From Spirochaetaceae bacterium (lineage in GTDB: Bacteria; Spirochaetota; Spirochaetia; Treponematales; Rectinemataceae): 64,000 nucleotides of DNA. Within the stretch, counting starts at the first letter, position 1. Every line of letters begins with the position of its first letter. The notes below the pieces were generated by a model that worked only from the letters and a program-made list of their open reading frames with translations, was not told where the DNA came from and did no database searches. A program made the position numbers and the translations under genes. Location of the stretch: positions 62,001 through 126,000 of the forward strand of contig JAOABY010000001.1 in NCBI GenBank assembly GCA_026418115.1, read 5' to 3'. This document shows positions 13,838 to 20,215 of this stretch, one piece after another.

Positions 13838-14412
13838 TGGAAATTCCTCTCAGGCTGATCGCCCGCAAGGATGGCAGCCTTGTGTACGGAGTGCCTGTCT
13901 GGTTCCGGCTGGTGATGGCCTCCATGTGTGCCGTCGTGGCTGTAGCGCTGCTGCTCGGTGGTGTTGCATCAAGTGTTCTTGCATGGATTGTTCTTGGTTT
14001 GCTTGTTCTTGGAGTACTGTATACCGAAACATGGGTCTTTGATGCCGCCCGTGGCAGCATTCAGGGAACCGTAGGATTTTTTCCCCTTATAAAAAAACAC
14101 GAAATACCATTTTCGAGCATAGAAGCCATCATGCTGGAGCCCTATGCGCGAGGAACCGTTCCTGGCGGCAGGGAAGAAGCCGAAAGCAGGCGCGATGCCT
14201 TGACGGAGATGAGATCCGGCGCCGAGAACCGCAGCAGCCATTACGAAGGGCTTAAACGCAAGAAGCTCTTCATAGCCATGATCATCGAGACCCATAAGGG
14301 AGAACGCTATCTTATCGATCTGGTTCCGGCAAGGCAGGCTCACAGGCTCGACCAGACAGCGCGCGCCCTCGCCGCCTATGCCGGCTGCACCTTCAGACAG
14401 GCAGAGAGCTAA
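13834..14412 (+). CDS. Membrane-anchored protein of unknown function, PH-like
   Basis: 192 residues. Two hydrophobic segments (about residues 22-45 and 48-65) are followed by a soluble part. Its beta-rich pattern, FDAARGSIQGTVGFFPLIKK, IPFSSIEAIMLEPY and a final alpha helix, resembles bacterial PH-like domains, with a charged Glu/Arg insertion around residues 105-130. ATG overlaps the trpR-like stop (ATGATG), so the two are translationally coupled. I do not recognise a defined family. Confidence 0.75.
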   Translation: MMEIPLRLIARKDGSLVYGVPVWFRLVMASMCAVVAVALLLGGVASSVLAWIVLGLLVLGVLYTETWVFDAARGSIQGTVGFFPLIKKHEIPFSSIEAIMLEPYARGTVPGGREEAESRRDALTEMRSGAENRSSHYEGLKRKKLFIAMIIETHKGERYLIDLVPARQAHRLDQTARALAAYAGCTFRQAES

Positions 14413-14453: not shown

Positions 14454-16925
14454 CTACCTGACCGGCTCTGCGAGGATATCCCCCAGTTCCACCAGTCCAT
14501 TGCTTTCTCTGGGCAGCACCATGGTCGATACGCCGACCGTCTCAGGCCAGACTATGCGGTACGTGCCGGGCACAAGGCCATAGATCTGGAAATTTCCATC
14601 ATCATCGGTAAAGGTCTGATCGAAGAAACTGCCGTCTTCGCGCAGCACATCGCCTGCAACGAGTGCCACCGGCCTGCCATCGGAACCAAGAAGCCGCCCG
14701 GTGACGTACAGCAACCTTTCAAGCCCGCCACGATAGAGGAAACCGGAGCGGTATTTCGGTGCCAGTCCTGCCTGAGGAAGTGTCGCCATCACATCGGCAT
14801 TCGCTTCGGGGAAATCCATCGAGGCAACCACTTTCCGGTACGATGAGAGTGGCGCAGCAATCGGCCAGCCCCGGGTAATCTGCGTCGAGCCTGATTCCAC
14901 CTTGAACGACACAGCATTGCCGCGAGTCGATCGGTCAGGTGCAAAAATGACGAACGCATCGTACAGAGGCTTTGACACTGCGAGCGCCCCTCCTGCAAAC
15001 GACAGCGCTGTCGAGAGGTTCAGATTGAGCGAACCAGCAGGCTTCCCGCTCGCACCCCCATAAATGGCTCCTGCGCTGCCCGAGAGCATGAAATACTGGC
15101 TGGAAATACCCGAGCTCACTGAAATTGTGCCTGGGTTGCTTCCTGTGCCAAGAAGGTTGTTTGCCTGGACACTGTATCCTATCCCTTTTCCAACAGGGAT
15201 CGTATCACTGTAGTAGAGCGTTCCCTCACCCTGTGCTGACTGGCTATAGGAGATCCTCCGCATGCTTGTAGCGGGATCAGTCGCGCTGAACGAGAGTACA
15301 AGGCTCGGCCTTGGCGGTCTGTTGCTGGTCAATTCCATTCCGGCACTGATTGAGAAAGAAGTATTCTTGTTTGAGTACGTGCCCAGATTGCAGGCAATCG
15401 TGGTGCTGTCTGTTGGCGTGGTGCCCAGTCTTCTGTTCCAGTTTGCAGAAAAGCCAATGCTGCTGCGCTGGCTCATCATGGTACTCAATCTGGCGCCTGC
15501 CTTGATTGATGCGTCGGTTTCGGTTGGGATCGATGATGGTTGGGGAGCGCTGAATCCTCTTCCCGTATAGCCAAAGGAGAGTCCCAGACTTGGCGCATTC
15601 TTGCGATAGCTGATCTGCAGGCTGTAATCCAGATCTCCCGCAAAGGACAGTGGTGTCGTCCTCCCATCCCATGCCGTCAGCAGTGCAGCATTGCCGCTCA
15701 GGCCTCCGATGTCCGTTCCCGCAATGAAACTGAGACCTGACAATAAGGAACGCTTGTCTGCCTGAAGGTTCAGCCCCACCGTGAGCCCGGACAGCACACC
15801 ATAGCGCACCGAGAGGGAAGCGAGAGGTTCATATGGCGGGAGTCTCCCAAGACCCACCGAGACGGCATAGTCCGCCTTGCCTGCAACCAGAAGTCCTGAT
15901 TCAGTAGCCACAAAGCGCGTGAGAGGCCTGTAGATGAGCGTTCCATCGGTCTTTGCAACATCTTCGACCTCGAGCTCTATCTCATTGAGACCATACGCGA
16001 ACGGAATGTCGTAGATGCGGTAATTCCCCTTGTCGAGCTTCAGAATCCTGATGACTGCTCCGTTGAGCTTCATCCGGACCATAGAGGCCTTCTCAAGAGT
16101 AAACCTCACCGAAGGAGCATAATTCTTGTCATAACGGCTGAAATAGGGAATGGAGACGAGCGTCAGGCCATAGATTTCAGGCCTCGACTGATAGCCTGTG
16201 CCCTCCGTGCCGACCATCCCGGCAAAGAGCCTGCCTTCAATGGCAGGGATATCATATACTGCCCGCACCCCGCTGAATGCTGCGCTCATTGTGGAATTTG
16301 AGTAATTCATATTTGCGCCATACTCGACAGCGACCGACCAGAGGTTGAGCAGGCCTGTGGCGCTCAGGCTCAAGGGTGTGGCAAAACCAGCATCGGTTAC
16401 CCTCAGCTGGCATCCAAGATTGAAATTGATGACTCCTGCGACAGGAGACGGTTTCAGCCAGCGATCAGCGATCACCTTCTGTTCAGGCGAAAAATCGATT
16501 TCCCTGAGTGCAGTGTATTCGCCTGGAGTTTCAATGTAATAGGAAAGGGTCTCCATGTCCCAGCGAGTCCTGAACCCTACGAGTTCCAGATCTTTCGGCC
16601 CAAGCCACTCCAGAAGACTGAATGTCATGCCAAAAATCCGTTCCATCTGGGCTGGGGAGAGATACGGCTCCAGCAGCCTGCGCAGCATGGCTTTCCGCAG
16701 AAACGGATTGTCCATATCAATGCGTACCTCGACATCACCGATCAGACGGTCGTTCACATAAAGAGTAACTGGCGCTTCTGTTTCAGGTACGGGCTCAATG
16801 TTTGTCTCAAGTACTGGCGGCATGGCAGATTGCCCCGGCAAGGCAGCCTGAGCCCCGGCTGCCGACAATGCCACCAGAGCCAGTAAGAGGATCGCGATAC
16901 TTCTAGAGTGCAGCCACGCTGACAT
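14454..16925 (-). CDS. Outer-membrane usher of an archaic-type chaperone-usher pathway
   Basis: 823 residues with a signal peptide (about 1-27). It would be the pore that receives chaperone-bound pilins and assembles them outside the cell. Near residues 315-370 is the segment NYRIYDIPFAYGLNEIELEV ... DGT, followed by FVATESGLLVAGKADYAVSVG, which reproduces the barrel/plug-border signature of ushers (PGPF-dlp ... DG ... lLa-G-dy--slG). The long middle is beta-strand rich with alternating hydrophobics. The C-terminus, RPVALVAGDVLREDGSFFD through YRIVW, matches the small usher C-terminal beta domain. It overlaps the preceding subunit gene by 23 nt. Divergence is high, so the call rests on these motifs and on the neighbours. 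Confidence 0.85.
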   Translation of the reverse strand: MSAWLHSRSIAILLLALVALSAAGAQAALPGQSAMPPVLETNIEPVPETEAPVTLYVNDRLIGDVEVRIDMDNPFLRKAMLRRLLEPYLSPAQMERIFGMTFSLLEWLGPKDLELVGFRTRWDMETLSYYIETPGEYTALREIDFSPEQKVIADRWLKPSPVAGVINFNLGCQLRVTDAGFATPLSLSATGLLNLWSVAVEYGANMNYSNSTMSAAFSGVRAVYDIPAIEGRLFAGMVGTEGTGYQSRPEIYGLTLVSIPYFSRYDKNYAPSVRFTLEKASMVRMKLNGAVIRILKLDKGNYRIYDIPFAYGLNEIELEVEDVAKTDGTLIYRPLTRFVATESGLLVAGKADYAVSVGLGRLPPYEPLASLSVRYGVLSGLTVGLNLQADKRSLLSGLSFIAGTDIGGLSGNAALLTAWDGRTTPLSFAGDLDYSLQISYRKNAPSLGLSFGYTGRGFSAPQPSSIPTETDASIKAGARLSTMMSQRSSIGFSANWNRRLGTTPTDSTTIACNLGTYSNKNTSFSISAGMELTSNRPPRPSLVLSFSATDPATSMRRISYSQSAQGEGTLYYSDTIPVGKGIGYSVQANNLLGTGSNPGTISVSSGISSQYFMLSGSAGAIYGGASGKPAGSLNLNLSTALSFAGGALAVSKPLYDAFVIFAPDRSTRGNAVSFKVESGSTQITRGWPIAAPLSSYRKVVASMDFPEANADVMATLPQAGLAPKYRSGFLYRGGLERLLYVTGRLLGSDGRPVALVAGDVLREDGSFFDQTFTDDDGNFQIYGLVPGTYRIVWPETVGVSTMVLPRESNGLVELGDILAEPVR

Positions 16926-17460
16926 AGATGATGTCCCTGTAGAATCCGGCTTCCCATTCGATGCCCGGCGGGCAGGGAGGAACCGTTATCTTATAGACAA
17001 ATCCCTGTCCGGCAGAGCCACCGGTGGTACGTGAAGTGAATTTTACCGAAATAGCCTTCTCGCTACCTGTAGGAAGCGTAGCATTGAGAATGCGAGCAGT
17101 GGGCGTGTTGGTACCCGCCTCATTGAAAGTGAATGTATAGGGGATGACGGTCGCACCGGGGTCCGTGACAAACAGATTGTTCACTACCATCGTGAGTGCG
17201 CCTTTTTCTGCCCACACCGCAAATACCCAGGATGCCGAATTGCTCATGATCACGATCGTCGCACTCCCGACATTACCCTTTACAGGATCGATAGAACCAA
17301 GATCCAGCCCTGGGGCAGACAGTATTGCTATTTTGCTCGATACCTTGGCATTCATGGCCAGCAGAGAATCCTGCTGAAAGGCAAGGGTTTGCGCCCTGAC
17401 CATGAGCGGGCCGGCCAGGGCAAGCATCATTACCGCCATGATACATCCAGACTTTTTCAT
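16903..17460 (-). CDS. SCPU-like secreted pilin subunit (last before the usher; possible tip)
   Basis: 185 residues with signal peptide ending near MVRAQ. Features of spore-coat-U/archaic pilins: a central VIPYTFTF motif and the C-terminal strand FYRDIIYVSVAAL ending at the stop codon. It is the only one of the four subunits with a Pro/Cys-rich loop (TVPPCPPGIEW) before the last strand. Start at 17460 follows AAAAGGAG; longer in-frame starts would precede the signal peptide. Being adjacent to the usher and different in its C-terminal loop, it may be a tip or minor subunit; that is inference. Confidence 0.8.
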   Translation of the reverse strand: MKKSGCIMAVMMLALAGPLMVRAQTLAFQQDSLLAMNAKVSSKIAILSAPGLDLGSIDPVKGNVGSATIVIMSNSASWVFAVWAEKGALTMVVNNLFVTDPGATVIPYTFTFNEAGTNTPTARILNATLPTGSEKAISVKFTSRTTGGSAGQGFVYKITVPPCPPGIEWEAGFYRDIIYVSVAAL

Positions 17461-17484
17461 ATGCTCCTTTTTTCCCTCCTCCCA

Positions 17485-17506
17485 CTGGATTGCCAGGCGA
17501 ATCCAG
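17485..17506. promoter_or_regulatory. Hairpin ahead of the usher-proximal subunit
   Basis: CTGGATT, 7-nt loop, AATCCAG on the plus strand, a 7-bp stem in the 141-nt gap between the chaperone and the subunit, directly upstream of its purine-rich SD region. It could be an mRNA processing or stability element. Confidence 0.35.
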
Positions 17507-17601
17507 CGGAATTCCGGATCCACTGCAGCCGTCATACAGCCGGCCAGGAAGAATATTTTTCCCTTCAGCCGTGCTGCCCGAATGCAGTGAAGGTGACTTC
17601 C

Positions 17602-18348
17602 TTATTCAATCTCTGCACTGATCGTTCCCTGATAGCTTCCTCCAATCTGTGCAGACTCCCACGGTACAAAAATGATGCGCTGGGACTTGGCAAGAATATT
17701 CTGCCCCGCAAGCACTTCCAGTGCTTTTTCTCCGAATTCTGCCAGGAGTGTGCCGTCCTTGCCGGTAAGACGGATCACAGGATTGGATATGAGGGCATGG
17801 CGCGTTCCCTCATTGCTGATGGTGATCCTCAGGCCTTTCCTGCCATCCTGCTCGACTCCCACAGCCTGGCTGACCAGCAATCTGGTTTCTGCATTTTTAG
17901 GTGTTATATACAGCGCCGCGACGTAGGTCAGCAGGATATTCACTCCGGAAGAGGTGGCTTTGGCAAAATCGACAGGGAGCTGTTCAGCTACGACTCTGAA
18001 TGCCAGTTCGACCGGCACGGCAGGGTTGCCCTTGTACTGCACCTTGACATTCTGGGAGCTGTTTGGTTTCAGAACCACACGCGCCGGAAATACCAGAAAG
18101 AGCTTGTCAGCTGGCTCATTCGACTCGACGCCTGCCGGATCGATGCTTCTGGTCATCACTTTGATGGATACCGCGATCTGCTTGTCCGACTCGTTGGTGA
18201 CTTTATAGGTTATCACGGCATTCGGGCCGCTGGATTCGATGGATGCCGACATGGGCGAGAATGAAAATGCCGCCACAACGTTGGCGCTGCCGATCAATGT
18301 CAGCACCACCAGTAGCCACGTCAGCTTCCTCATGCGCACGCTCTGCAT
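17602..18348 (-). CDS. Periplasmic PapD-like pilus chaperone
   Basis: 248 residues with signal peptide (ends about VVAAFSF). Two immunoglobulin-like domains: the N-terminal one opens FSFSPMSASIESSGPNAVIT and contains LFLVFPARVVLKPNSSQNVK, the G1-strand region equivalent to the conserved FPP--vL-P--sQ-vrv motif of pilus chaperones, then FRVVAEQLPVDF before the interdomain hinge. The C-terminal domain ends IGGSYQGTISAEIE. Such chaperones fold pilins by donating a strand and deliver them to the usher. Start at 18348 is supported by AAAGGAG. Confidence 0.88.
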   Translation of the reverse strand: MQSVRMRKLTWLLVVLTLIGSANVVAAFSFSPMSASIESSGPNAVITYKVTNESDKQIAVSIKVMTRSIDPAGVESNEPADKLFLVFPARVVLKPNSSQNVKVQYKGNPAVPVELAFRVVAEQLPVDFAKATSSGVNILLTYVAALYITPKNAETRLLVSQAVGVEQDGRKGLRITISNEGTRHALISNPVIRLTGKDGTLLAEFGEKALEVLAGQNILAKSQRIIFVPWESAQIGGSYQGTISAEIE

Positions 18349-18450
18349 ACAAGCTCCTTTACACATGCCTTTCGGCTCATTATGAAGGTCAATCCCATGC
18401 ACTGTCAAGAAAAAGCCATGGCCCGCCTCAGCACCGACCTGCCTTCATGC

Positions 18451-18478
18451 AAAAAGAGCGGCTGTGTGACAGCCGCTC
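18451..18478 (-). terminator. Intrinsic terminator after the main pilin gene
   Basis: On the minus strand GAGCGGCTGT, CAC loop, ACAGCCGCTC followed by TTTTT. It lies between the third subunit and the chaperone gene, so most transcripts from the strong pilin promoter should stop here, with read-through supplying chaperone and usher. Confidence 0.85.
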
Positions 18479-18503
18479 CTCTCTCTTCCCATATACAATG
18501 GGA

Positions 18504-19052
18504 TCAGTTTGCAATCAGAGTAACGGTAATGGTATCAGTGTAGACAAGACCGGCATACCAGTTGGCAGTATCCTCTGCTCCATACGTAATGCTCATGGTA
18601 ATGGTTTCACCAGTCGAACCACCGGTAATTCTGGTACTGTAGGATTTTGTAAGGCCGGCAAAGGGAATTGCCTGAGCATCGAAGGCTGTGCCAATCGTTG
18701 TTCCACCCACGAGGGTAAAGGTATAGGGAATTCTATAAGTGTCAGTACCTGCGGTGGCAACAAGTGCGCTGTCAGCTCCGTTATTGATCGGTGAAAGTGC
18801 AGTAACCTTCAGCGTCCAGTACTTGAGATTGGTGGCTGCCTTTGCAGTTGCAATCTGCTTGGTCTCACCTGCAGTGTTCAAAGTAAATTTAGTCAACTCA
18901 GTCATGTCAGACAATGTAAGGTAGCCCACAAGCGCTGCCTTAACTTCTACACTGTCAGATGCATTTGAAGGAGCTGCCGGTGGGAAAGTCTGTCCAAATA
19001 CAAATCCAGTAACCAGCAACACCATTGCGGTAATGATTGCCAACTTTTTCAT
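18504..19052 (-). CDS. SCPU-like secreted pilin, probable major subunit
   Basis: 182 residues; signal peptide ends TGFVFGQ. Mature protein lacks cysteine and is rich in Thr/Ala/Gly. It has the family centre YRIPYTFTLVGG and final strand LVYTDTITVTLIAN, which matches the YxDTxTVTL ending of spore-coat-U-type pilins. It has its own near-consensus promoter, a 5' hairpin next to GAGGAGG, and its own terminator: the arrangement expected of the abundantly made structural subunit. Confidence 0.85.
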   Translation of the reverse strand: MKKLAIITAMVLLVTGFVFGQTFPPAAPSNASDSVEVKAALVGYLTLSDMTELTKFTLNTAGETKQIATAKAATNLKYWTLKVTALSPINNGADSALVATAGTDTYRIPYTFTLVGGTTIGTAFDAQAIPFAGLTKSYSTRITGGSTGETITMSITYGAEDTANWYAGLVYTDTITVTLIAN

Positions 19053-19063
19053 TTCTTCCTCCT

Positions 19064-19076
19064 CAGCGTTTCGCTG
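19064..19076 (-). promoter_or_regulatory. 5' UTR stem-loop of the main pilin
   Basis: CAGCG AAA CGCTG immediately upstream of the GAGGAGG ribosome-binding site; a compact hairpin of the type that protects abundant mRNAs. Confidence 0.45.
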
Positions 19077-19138
19077 TTTTCTATTGTTCGATGGATATTG
19101 CGCACAACGTGCCTCTATCCAAACTATCTACTAACTCT

Positions 19139-19167
19139 AGAATACTGCCAACCTATCTCCAAGTCAA
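19139..19167 (-). promoter_or_regulatory. Promoter of the main pilin gene
   Basis: Minus strand TTGACT, 17-nt spacer, TATTCT. The spacer starts TGGAGATA, similar to the TTTGGAGAAA found in the other pilin promoter and again at 19184-19193. Confidence 0.75.
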
Positions 19168-19205
19168 TAACCTTATCGGCTAATTTCTCCAAAATATGAA
19201 TTTTC

Positions 19206-19700
19206 TCACAGCAGCGCCACGGTAATGGTCACAAAATCATGATAGGTATCCGCACGTATCGGCATTTCCATCTGGTCGAACCGTGCGTACCTGATCCTCA
19301 CTGGAAATTCTGAAACCGAAAGCGGCTGCGTCGTGGCATGAGCCACGGAAAATTCGCTCGAAAGATCAATGTTCTCGATACTGCCGAATGCGAACTGGTA
19401 GGGAATCGTGTCGGTATTGCCAGGCGTCATTCCTATCAGCCTCCCACCAAACTGCGAGCGGATCGAAATGGTCCAGTATGCTACTACATTCGTAGTGATG
19501 ATCACCTTACCTAGATATGCCGAGGTGGCGTTCATGAGATCAATGATTTCCACATTTTCCATATCGGTGCTGACTATGAGATAAGGTGGTATTACCGCCT
19601 GCAGTTCCGTGGTGAGTGTTCTGGGCTCAAAGGCTTGCACATTCGCTGCCACCAGGATGGCCAGCAGAAAAAGCGCCGCCCTTTTTATTCCTTTTTTCAT
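19206..19700 (-). CDS. SCPU-like secreted pilin subunit
   Basis: 164 residues; signal peptide ends VQAFEP. Pilin hallmarks are the central DTIPYQFAFGS and the terminal TYHDFVTITVALL. No cysteine in the mature part. The ATG at 19700 follows GGTGG; an in-frame ATG four codons upstream is possible. It follows the first subunit closely and is separated from the main pilin by that gene's own promoter. Confidence 0.82.
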   Translation of the reverse strand: MKKGIKRAALFLLAILVAANVQAFEPRTLTTELQAVIPPYLIVSTDMENVEIIDLMNATSAYLGKVIITTNVVAYWTISIRSQFGGRLIGMTPGNTDTIPYQFAFGSIENIDLSSEFSVAHATTQPLSVSEFPVRIRYARFDQMEMPIRADTYHDFVTITVALL

Positions 19701-19735
19701 GATAGCCACCATCCCTGCACCCGCACCTGAGACCT

Positions 19736-20215
19736 TCAGAGCATGGAAACTGTGATTATCACTGTATCGAGATAGGTATCGGCCGCAAGAGCCGGGACAA
19801 TGGAGGCTGCCGGCTGATAGAAGGCTTTGAGCCGGAACGTATAGGTGCCTGCCCCTGTCAGCGTTGCCACAAGATCGCTCGCCAGAGAGCCCTGCAGCAG
19901 CACCTGCGCATTCGCATCATTGATCAGCGCAACGGTATAGGGATACTGCATGTTCTGTGTCTGGCCGAGCATGTAGCCACCATTCACCGAATGCACAATG
20001 ATCTGCCAGGTGCCATTGGTATTGGAGCTTATGGTAACCGAACCCAGATTAGCATTGTCCGATGCAGTATCAATGACAGTGGATTCAGGCAGGTCACCCG
20101 TCACTGCTACCTGTTCGCCTATGATCGCGATGATTTTGGTGCTTGAAGACGTACCGGCTGCAAAAGCTGCTGCAGTAACGGCTAAAAGTAGAACGAGACC
20201 AAACACTTTCTTCAT
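19736..20215 (-). CDS. SCPU-like secreted pilin subunit (first gene of the locus)
   Basis: 159 residues; signal peptide ends AAAFAAG. Shows NMQYPYTVALI in the centre and TYLDTVIITVSML at the end. Strong SD GGAGGT. Transcribed from its own promoter at 20259-20287. Confidence 0.83.
   Translation of the reverse strand: MKKVFGLVLLLAVTAAAFAAGTSSSTKIIAIIGEQVAVTGDLPESTVIDTASDNANLGSVTISSNTNGTWQIIVHSVNGGYMLGQTQNMQYPYTVALINDANAQVLLQGSLASDLVATLTGAGTYTFRLKAFYQPAASIVPALAADTYLDTVIITVSML

Follow-up and report, generated by a model that had tools for sequence, protein, structure and literature searches.

A divergent, archaic-like chaperone-usher locus in a Rectinema spirochaete

A chaperone-usher pilus locus was analysed in the window, the whole 64,000-nucleotide (nt) stretch of contig JAOABY010000001.1 (positions 62,001 to 126,000, forward strand) from the Spirochaetaceae bacterium assembly GCA_026418115.1. 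The locus lies on the minus strand at positions 14454-20215 and is real, apparently intact, divergent, of the archaic-like chaperone-usher type, and ordinary in kind. All six open reading frames (ORFs) given in a preliminary description, an usher-like protein of 823 residues, a PapD-like chaperone, and four small secreted proteins (here termed pilins), were confirmed at their earlier coordinates, and they are transcribed in the order pilin 1, pilin 2, pilin 3, chaperone, pilin 4, usher. Families, folds, key residues, gene order, and a hairpin were established by computation. The features, with lengths in amino acids (aa) and the evidence for each, are as follows.

19736-20215, minus strand: pilin 1, 159 aa, with a signal peptide, central motif YPYT, and no cysteine (ORF and membership of an iterative pilin/tip profile).
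19206-19712, minus strand: pilin 2, 168 aa, with central motif IPYQ and no cysteine (AlphaFold model and PDB fold match).
18504-19052, minus strand: pilin 3, 182 aa, with central motif IPYT and no cysteine (ORF and iterative pilin profile).
18451-18483, minus strand: intrinsic-terminator-like hairpin with a T-tract, 21 nt past the pilin 3 stop (sequence and folding energy).
18379-18408, minus strand: weak promoter-like site, TTGACA-18-CATAAT, about 30 nt ahead of the likely chaperone start (consensus scan, 11/12).
17602-18348, minus strand: PapD-like periplasmic chaperone, 248 aa from a start with a ribosome site (longer ORF, 17602-18408).
16903-17460, minus strand: pilin 4, 185 aa from a start with a ribosome site, with central motif IPYT (longer ORF, 16903-17535).
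14454-16925, minus strand: outer-membrane usher, 823 aa (Pfam, profile, AlphaFold model, and tree).

For the chaperone and pilin 4, the start was picked by ribosome-site inspection, the longest ORFs starting further upstream, and pilin 4 and the usher start overlap by 23 nt. Relatives of the six products are 30-50% identical to them. For the pilins, these relatives included the proteins of two loci (L082 and L083) of a sister genus, g13: pilin 1 was closest to pilin 1 of L082 (expectation value [E], 2e-22), pilin 2 shared 41-46% identity with the second pilin of each locus, pilin 3 was related to pilin 3 of both, and pilin 4 matched pilin 4 of L082 at an E value of 5e-29.

Pfam alone was equivocal for the system as a whole, and the question was settled with profiles of relatives and with models; the resemblance exceeds chance. 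A profile of 20 spirochaete ushers matched the solved structures of FimD (E, 6e-11) and PapC (E, 2e-5), together with a fragment of the F1 usher. A single-sequence search with the window usher found nothing real among the solved structures, so that a profile was required, and an NCBIfam search gave no useful match; the usher of a Rectinema genus-mate clears the Pfam Usher cutoff at 38.3 bits. The AlphaFold model of the window usher, built from 13 rows and with a mean predicted local distance difference test (pLDDT) score of 74.6, matched FimD from end to end (E, 2e-34; 847 columns). Its architecture comprises an N-terminal domain, a barrel with a plug, and two C-terminal domains, the last of which (residues 741-791) is carboxypeptidase regulatory like. 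Both the FimD/PapC profile match and the FimD model match thus recovered the 24-strand-type barrel with plug and terminal domains that is expected of the superfamily, and the usher assignment of the preliminary description stands. In the usher tree, which contained no alternative-type usher, the spirochaete ushers and those of alphaproteobacteria and cyanobacteria were split from the classical ushers at 100/100, a grouping with archaic rather than classical ushers.

The chaperone was recognised by Pfam PapD_N at 30.7 bits, over the cutoff of 23, and the profile of its family matched CsuC best among the solved structures (E, 2.8e-5), followed by EcpB (E, 5.8e-4), in agreement with its original naming as PapD-like. 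All 19 spirochaete chaperones compared had the equivalents of CsuC Pro59 and Arg89, the proline being the invariant one of PapD-like chaperones. The donor positions were hydrophobic and aligned as V-I-L-Y, with the tyrosine, equivalent to CsuC Tyr116 at position P0, present in 18/19. Arg89, the non-classical anchor, and Tyr116 are the residues that mark non-classical/archaic chaperones (PMC4654587).

The four small proteins had been described as sharing a central (I/Y)PY(T/Q) motif, which was found in all of them, and a C-terminal YxDxxxV strand, which was borne out in part: YxD occurs in all four (YLD, YHD, YTD, and YRD), and the seventh residue is valine in two and isoleucine in the other two. 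The window pilins matched no Pfam family. Pilin 2, modelled with AlphaFold (pLDDT, 89.6), had as its fold matches in the PDB CfaB (E, 4e-5; the best single match), the Csu pilus subunit CsuA/B (E, 2e-4), and Caf1. In this model, residues ~28-43 lie outside the sheet as a free N-terminal extension, which is likely to be the donor strand, and hydrophobic N-terminal extensions were present in all four pilins. An incomplete immunoglobulin (Ig) fold with an N-terminal donor strand was accordingly recovered, the fold itself from pilin 2 only; in that one model the expected Ig fold of the small proteins was upheld. Furthermore, the window pilins and the two-domain tip proteins of relatives fell into one iterative profile; the tip homologs passed Pfam SCPU, and their profile matched CsuE at 8e-6. 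The near-absence of cysteine noted earlier was also seen, the mature regions of pilins 1 to 4 having 0, 0, 0, and 1. Among 25 spirochaete pilins, the mature part had no cysteine in 22 and one cysteine in 3, and most proteobacterial pilins checked had at least two.

Several known systems resemble the locus. The Csu pilus of Acinetobacter baumannii (archaic/sigma) is like the sister loci in its order of three pilins, chaperone, usher, and two-domain tip, and it is also the system to which the chaperone profile (CsuC), the tip profile (CsuE), and the pilin fold (CsuA/B) point, with the equivalents of Pro59, Arg89, and Tyr116 kept. The window locus differs from it in an extra pilin between chaperone and usher, a missing tip gene, the lack of invariant pilin cysteines, the carboxypeptidase-regulatory-like end domain of the usher, and very low sequence identity. 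The nearest ushers found outside Spirochaetota belong to archaic-like loci of Sphingobium TomTYG65, Novosphingobium PP1Y, and Leptolyngbya BL0902. These loci have the same pilins-chaperone-usher order, and in the two sphingomonads the usher is followed by a gene of the size of a tip gene, but their ushers are 22-28% identical and most of their pilins have at least two cysteines. CFA/I and ECP, of the alternative (alpha) type, share the best fold match of pilin 2 (CfaB), a chaperone profile match (EcpB), and the non-classical arginine; however, CsuC outscores EcpB, and both the gene order and the two-domain tip of SCPU type agree with the archaic family. The classical systems (FimD/PapC and Caf1) are alike in usher architecture and fold, but the usher tree separates them at 100/100, and the window chaperone has the arginine that is said to be non-classical only.

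Five observations weigh against this placement. The window usher scored 20.1 bits with Pfam Usher, under the cutoff of 27.1; the plug region of its model was poor (pLDDT, 50-70); the carboxylate anchor of the second chaperone domain, CsuC Arg174/Tyr196, was not recovered in a weak domain 2 alignment, in which the Arg174 position holds a non-polar residue and an invariant histidine lies nearby; the cysteines marked as invariant in archaic pilin domains (PMC4654587, Fig 1 legend) are missing from the window pilins; and no tip gene follows the usher, so that the locus lacks the two-domain tip of an archaic operon. Overall, the profile searches, the AlphaFold models, and the trees assign the locus to the chaperone-usher superfamily, with the archaic (Csu-like) type as the nearest. 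Because the invariant pilin cysteines are missing, it is an archaic-like, cysteine-free variant and not a certified archaic member. The earlier term "archaic-type" holds as far as a non-classical system closest to the archaic ones is meant, and fails for the pilin cysteines. It is highly probable that these genes specify a chaperone-usher fibre system, non-classical and archaic-like, in a spirochaete without flagella, and that it works by the mechanism proposed below.

The locus had also been called complete, which does not hold, since most sister loci have a two-domain tip-adhesin gene behind the usher and this one has none. The order pilins-chaperone-usher-tip is conserved in g13, and a two-domain gene (305-343 aa) follows the usher in this genus (L044/L083) and in most other loci; at the second g13 locus (L045/L082), the contig ends inside the tip gene. 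The related statement that no two-domain adhesin is present was right for the locus and wrong for the genome, in which contig C82 encodes a 327-aa two-domain protein, the tip candidate (G000:C82:6052-7035; profile E, 2e-25), unlinked to the locus. In addition, orphan single-domain pilins unlinked to any chaperone or usher lie on contigs C44 and C97 (L098:7859-8461 and L142:6203-6733). The G+C content of C82 and C44 equals that of the window, and Rectinema genus-mates likewise have several pilins distant from the usher. As one usher was found in the host genome, the simplest reading is a single machine serving scattered subunits. The orphan pilin on C97 has several cysteines, in contrast to the window pilins.

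The missing tip gene, together with a usher stop just 42 nt from a convergent gene, could be taken for a sign of decay, the tip adhesin gene having been lost when the locus moved and a functional adhesive fibre no longer being made. This is decidedly unlikely, given that the six frames are all open and the conserved residues are retained, that a two-domain tip-like gene and two further pilins exist elsewhere in the host genome, and that genus-mates too have pilins away from the usher. The same absence, and the match of the pilin 2 fold to Caf1, would also suit a thin, tip-less, capsule-like polymer, such as the F1 antigen, in place of a pilus with a tip adhesin. Several distinct pilins instead of one, a Csu-type gene order, and two-domain tip genes that are conserved across the family, with one in the host genome, make such a product unlikely.

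In the archaic-like fibre system favoured here, the hairpin after pilin 3 (-32 kcal/mol; z, -5.5) bears on expression. Both g13 loci (L083 and L082) have a hairpin and a T-tract at the same place but of unrelated sequence. Most transcripts would likely stop after the pilins, and the hairpin between pilin 3 and the chaperone, acting as a terminator, probably holds pilin output above that of the chaperone and usher. Promoter-like sites such as the one ahead of the chaperone were no more numerous in the region than in shuffles.

We infer donor-strand exchange, the expression ratio, the use of an unlinked tip, and attachment. The four secreted pilins, each with an Ig fold that is incomplete, would reach the periplasm by means of their signal peptides, where the chaperone would hold each of them by lending its hydrophobic V-I-L-Y strand while the conserved arginine anchors the pilin C terminus. 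Each pilin would then pass to the barrel of the outer-membrane usher, the N-terminal strand of the next subunit would displace the chaperone strand, and the fibre would extend outward. The tip probably comes from the unlinked two-domain gene on C82, and the most likely role of the fibre is attachment to surfaces or partner cells.

The suspicion that the host is a spirochaete proved right. The host is a Rectinema species, since its genus-mate G002 is Rectinema subterraneum (WESA01000015.1). No flagellin gene was found in its genome, a draft of 141 contigs that is 96% complete. Rectinema cohabitans and a related isolate are rod shaped, non-motile, and without flagella (PMC6052044).

The history of the window's version differs from that of its host. 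In Rectinema genus-mates, the locus lies between galE, tRNA-Phe, and tRNA-Val on one side and malQ on the other, and in g13 and another genus, g14, it likewise adjoins tRNA-Val with galE near. This ancestral site is empty in the host (L137:6407-8262), where galE, tRNA-Phe, tRNA-Val, and malQ are neighbours and nothing separates tRNA-Val from malQ. At the present site of the locus in the window, the locus-facing side of the flanking gene is different in every genus-mate looked at. The host usher grouped with g13 at 100/100, and forcing it into its own genus was rejected (approximately unbiased [AU] test, P = 1.5e-71); in the galE tree, the host fell within its own genus at 100/99. These tree and site data suggest a lateral replacement from a g13-like lineage, within Rectinemataceae, as their best explanation. 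An old duplication with differential loss, which would concern the history of the locus and not its function, could produce the same conflict between usher and host trees, given the age of the locus in the family and the two ushers of some relatives (G333 and G404). It is nevertheless rather unlikely: no examined Rectinemataceae genome has both versions, the ancestral site of the host is empty, and placement of the host usher in its own genus fails the AU test by an extreme margin. Acquisition by a spirochaete from Proteobacteria was rejected on the nesting of the usher among spirochaetes and the distance of its outside relatives, and it is barely credible. The nearest ushers outside the phylum are indeed alphaproteobacterial and cyanobacterial, but at 22-28% identity they are remote from an usher that is 50% identical to that of the sister genus and lies inside a spirochaete clade with full support; moreover, the G+C content of the locus (0.53) is close to that of the window (0.54), and movement seems confined to Rectinemataceae. 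The locus had been thought either unusual for a spirochaete or acquired. Such loci are in fact a regular feature of Rectinemataceae and are also found in several other families of spirochaetes, with no proteobacterial import; what remains of the suggestion is a version seemingly swapped in from a sister genus.

Spirochaetes are known as swimmers with internal flagella. The survey sampled 393 spirochaete genomes. The usher profile matched 45 of them, of which 37 were retained after filtering; the eight discarded (G313, G061, G110, G116, G164, G210, G226, and G240) matched in the C-terminal carboxypeptidase-regulatory-like domain only. All 10 of the sampled members of the Rectinema genus had ushers. 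Flagellin was found in 351 of the 393 genomes, and ushers occurred in 30 of the 42 flagellin-less genomes versus 7 of the 351 with flagellin. Nearly all of these 30 belong to one other family, f13, which may be Sphaerochaetaceae. Within Rectinemataceae, ushers were present in 16/19 flagellin-less genomes and 3/11 genomes with flagellin (P = 0.004); at the genus level, the link was not significant (6/7 versus 2/7; P = 0.10), and a flagellin-less genus of family f10 (g54; three genomes) had no usher. Because independent flagellar losses are few, the skew is a suggestive lead and not a result. Tentatively, and with less than even confidence, chaperone-usher fibres may be a recurrent surface organelle of spirochaetes whose internal flagella have been lost. 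They would form an old spirochaete branch of the archaic type in which the pilins have no cysteine, retained or acquired by two or more separate flagellum-less lineages and passed from genus to genus.

Archaic systems have been listed for Proteobacteria, Cyanobacteria, and Deinococcus-Thermus, with spirochaetes unlisted (PMC4654587), and a 2016 survey tabulates Spirochaetae among the phyla with fimbrial ushers without discussing them (PMC4827864). A literature search found no paper on spirochaete chaperone-usher pili, most subscription papers being outside its reach. Ushers in spirochaetes as such having been tabulated, the new element is the suggestive skew to flagellin-less members. The locus owes its value to its spirochaete branch, to pilins free of cysteine, to the swap within the family, and to the possible tie to lost flagella. 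A defined Rectinema pilus locus with mapped relatives provides a surface organelle that can be tested in non-motile spirochaetes living alongside other anaerobes, its cysteine-free pilins are a natural test of how far the assembly pathway depends on disulphides, and the skew to flagellum-less lineages frames a testable hypothesis on the aftermath of motility loss.

Several further observations were made in related genomes and beside the locus. The ushers of f13 (L072-L078) are a second spirochaete type of about 1,100 aa, unrecognised by Pfam, that lies next to a PapD-like chaperone and, in the cases tested, to V-ATPase genes (subunit genes stand beside it in L072); mostly no pilin gene was found alongside, and in one f13 genome, G373, pilin-profile matches of 237 and 210 aa occur near a 1,091-aa usher candidate (L079:4359-13845). 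A flagellin-bearing member of Rectinemataceae (G019) has an enlarged locus (L060:5543-13838), in which a single chaperone and a single usher are surrounded by four single-domain pilins and two genes for two-domain tips. In the window, the gene convergent with the usher gene (13843-14412, plus strand) encodes a small conserved protein with no Pfam match that is present in most sampled Rectinemataceae.

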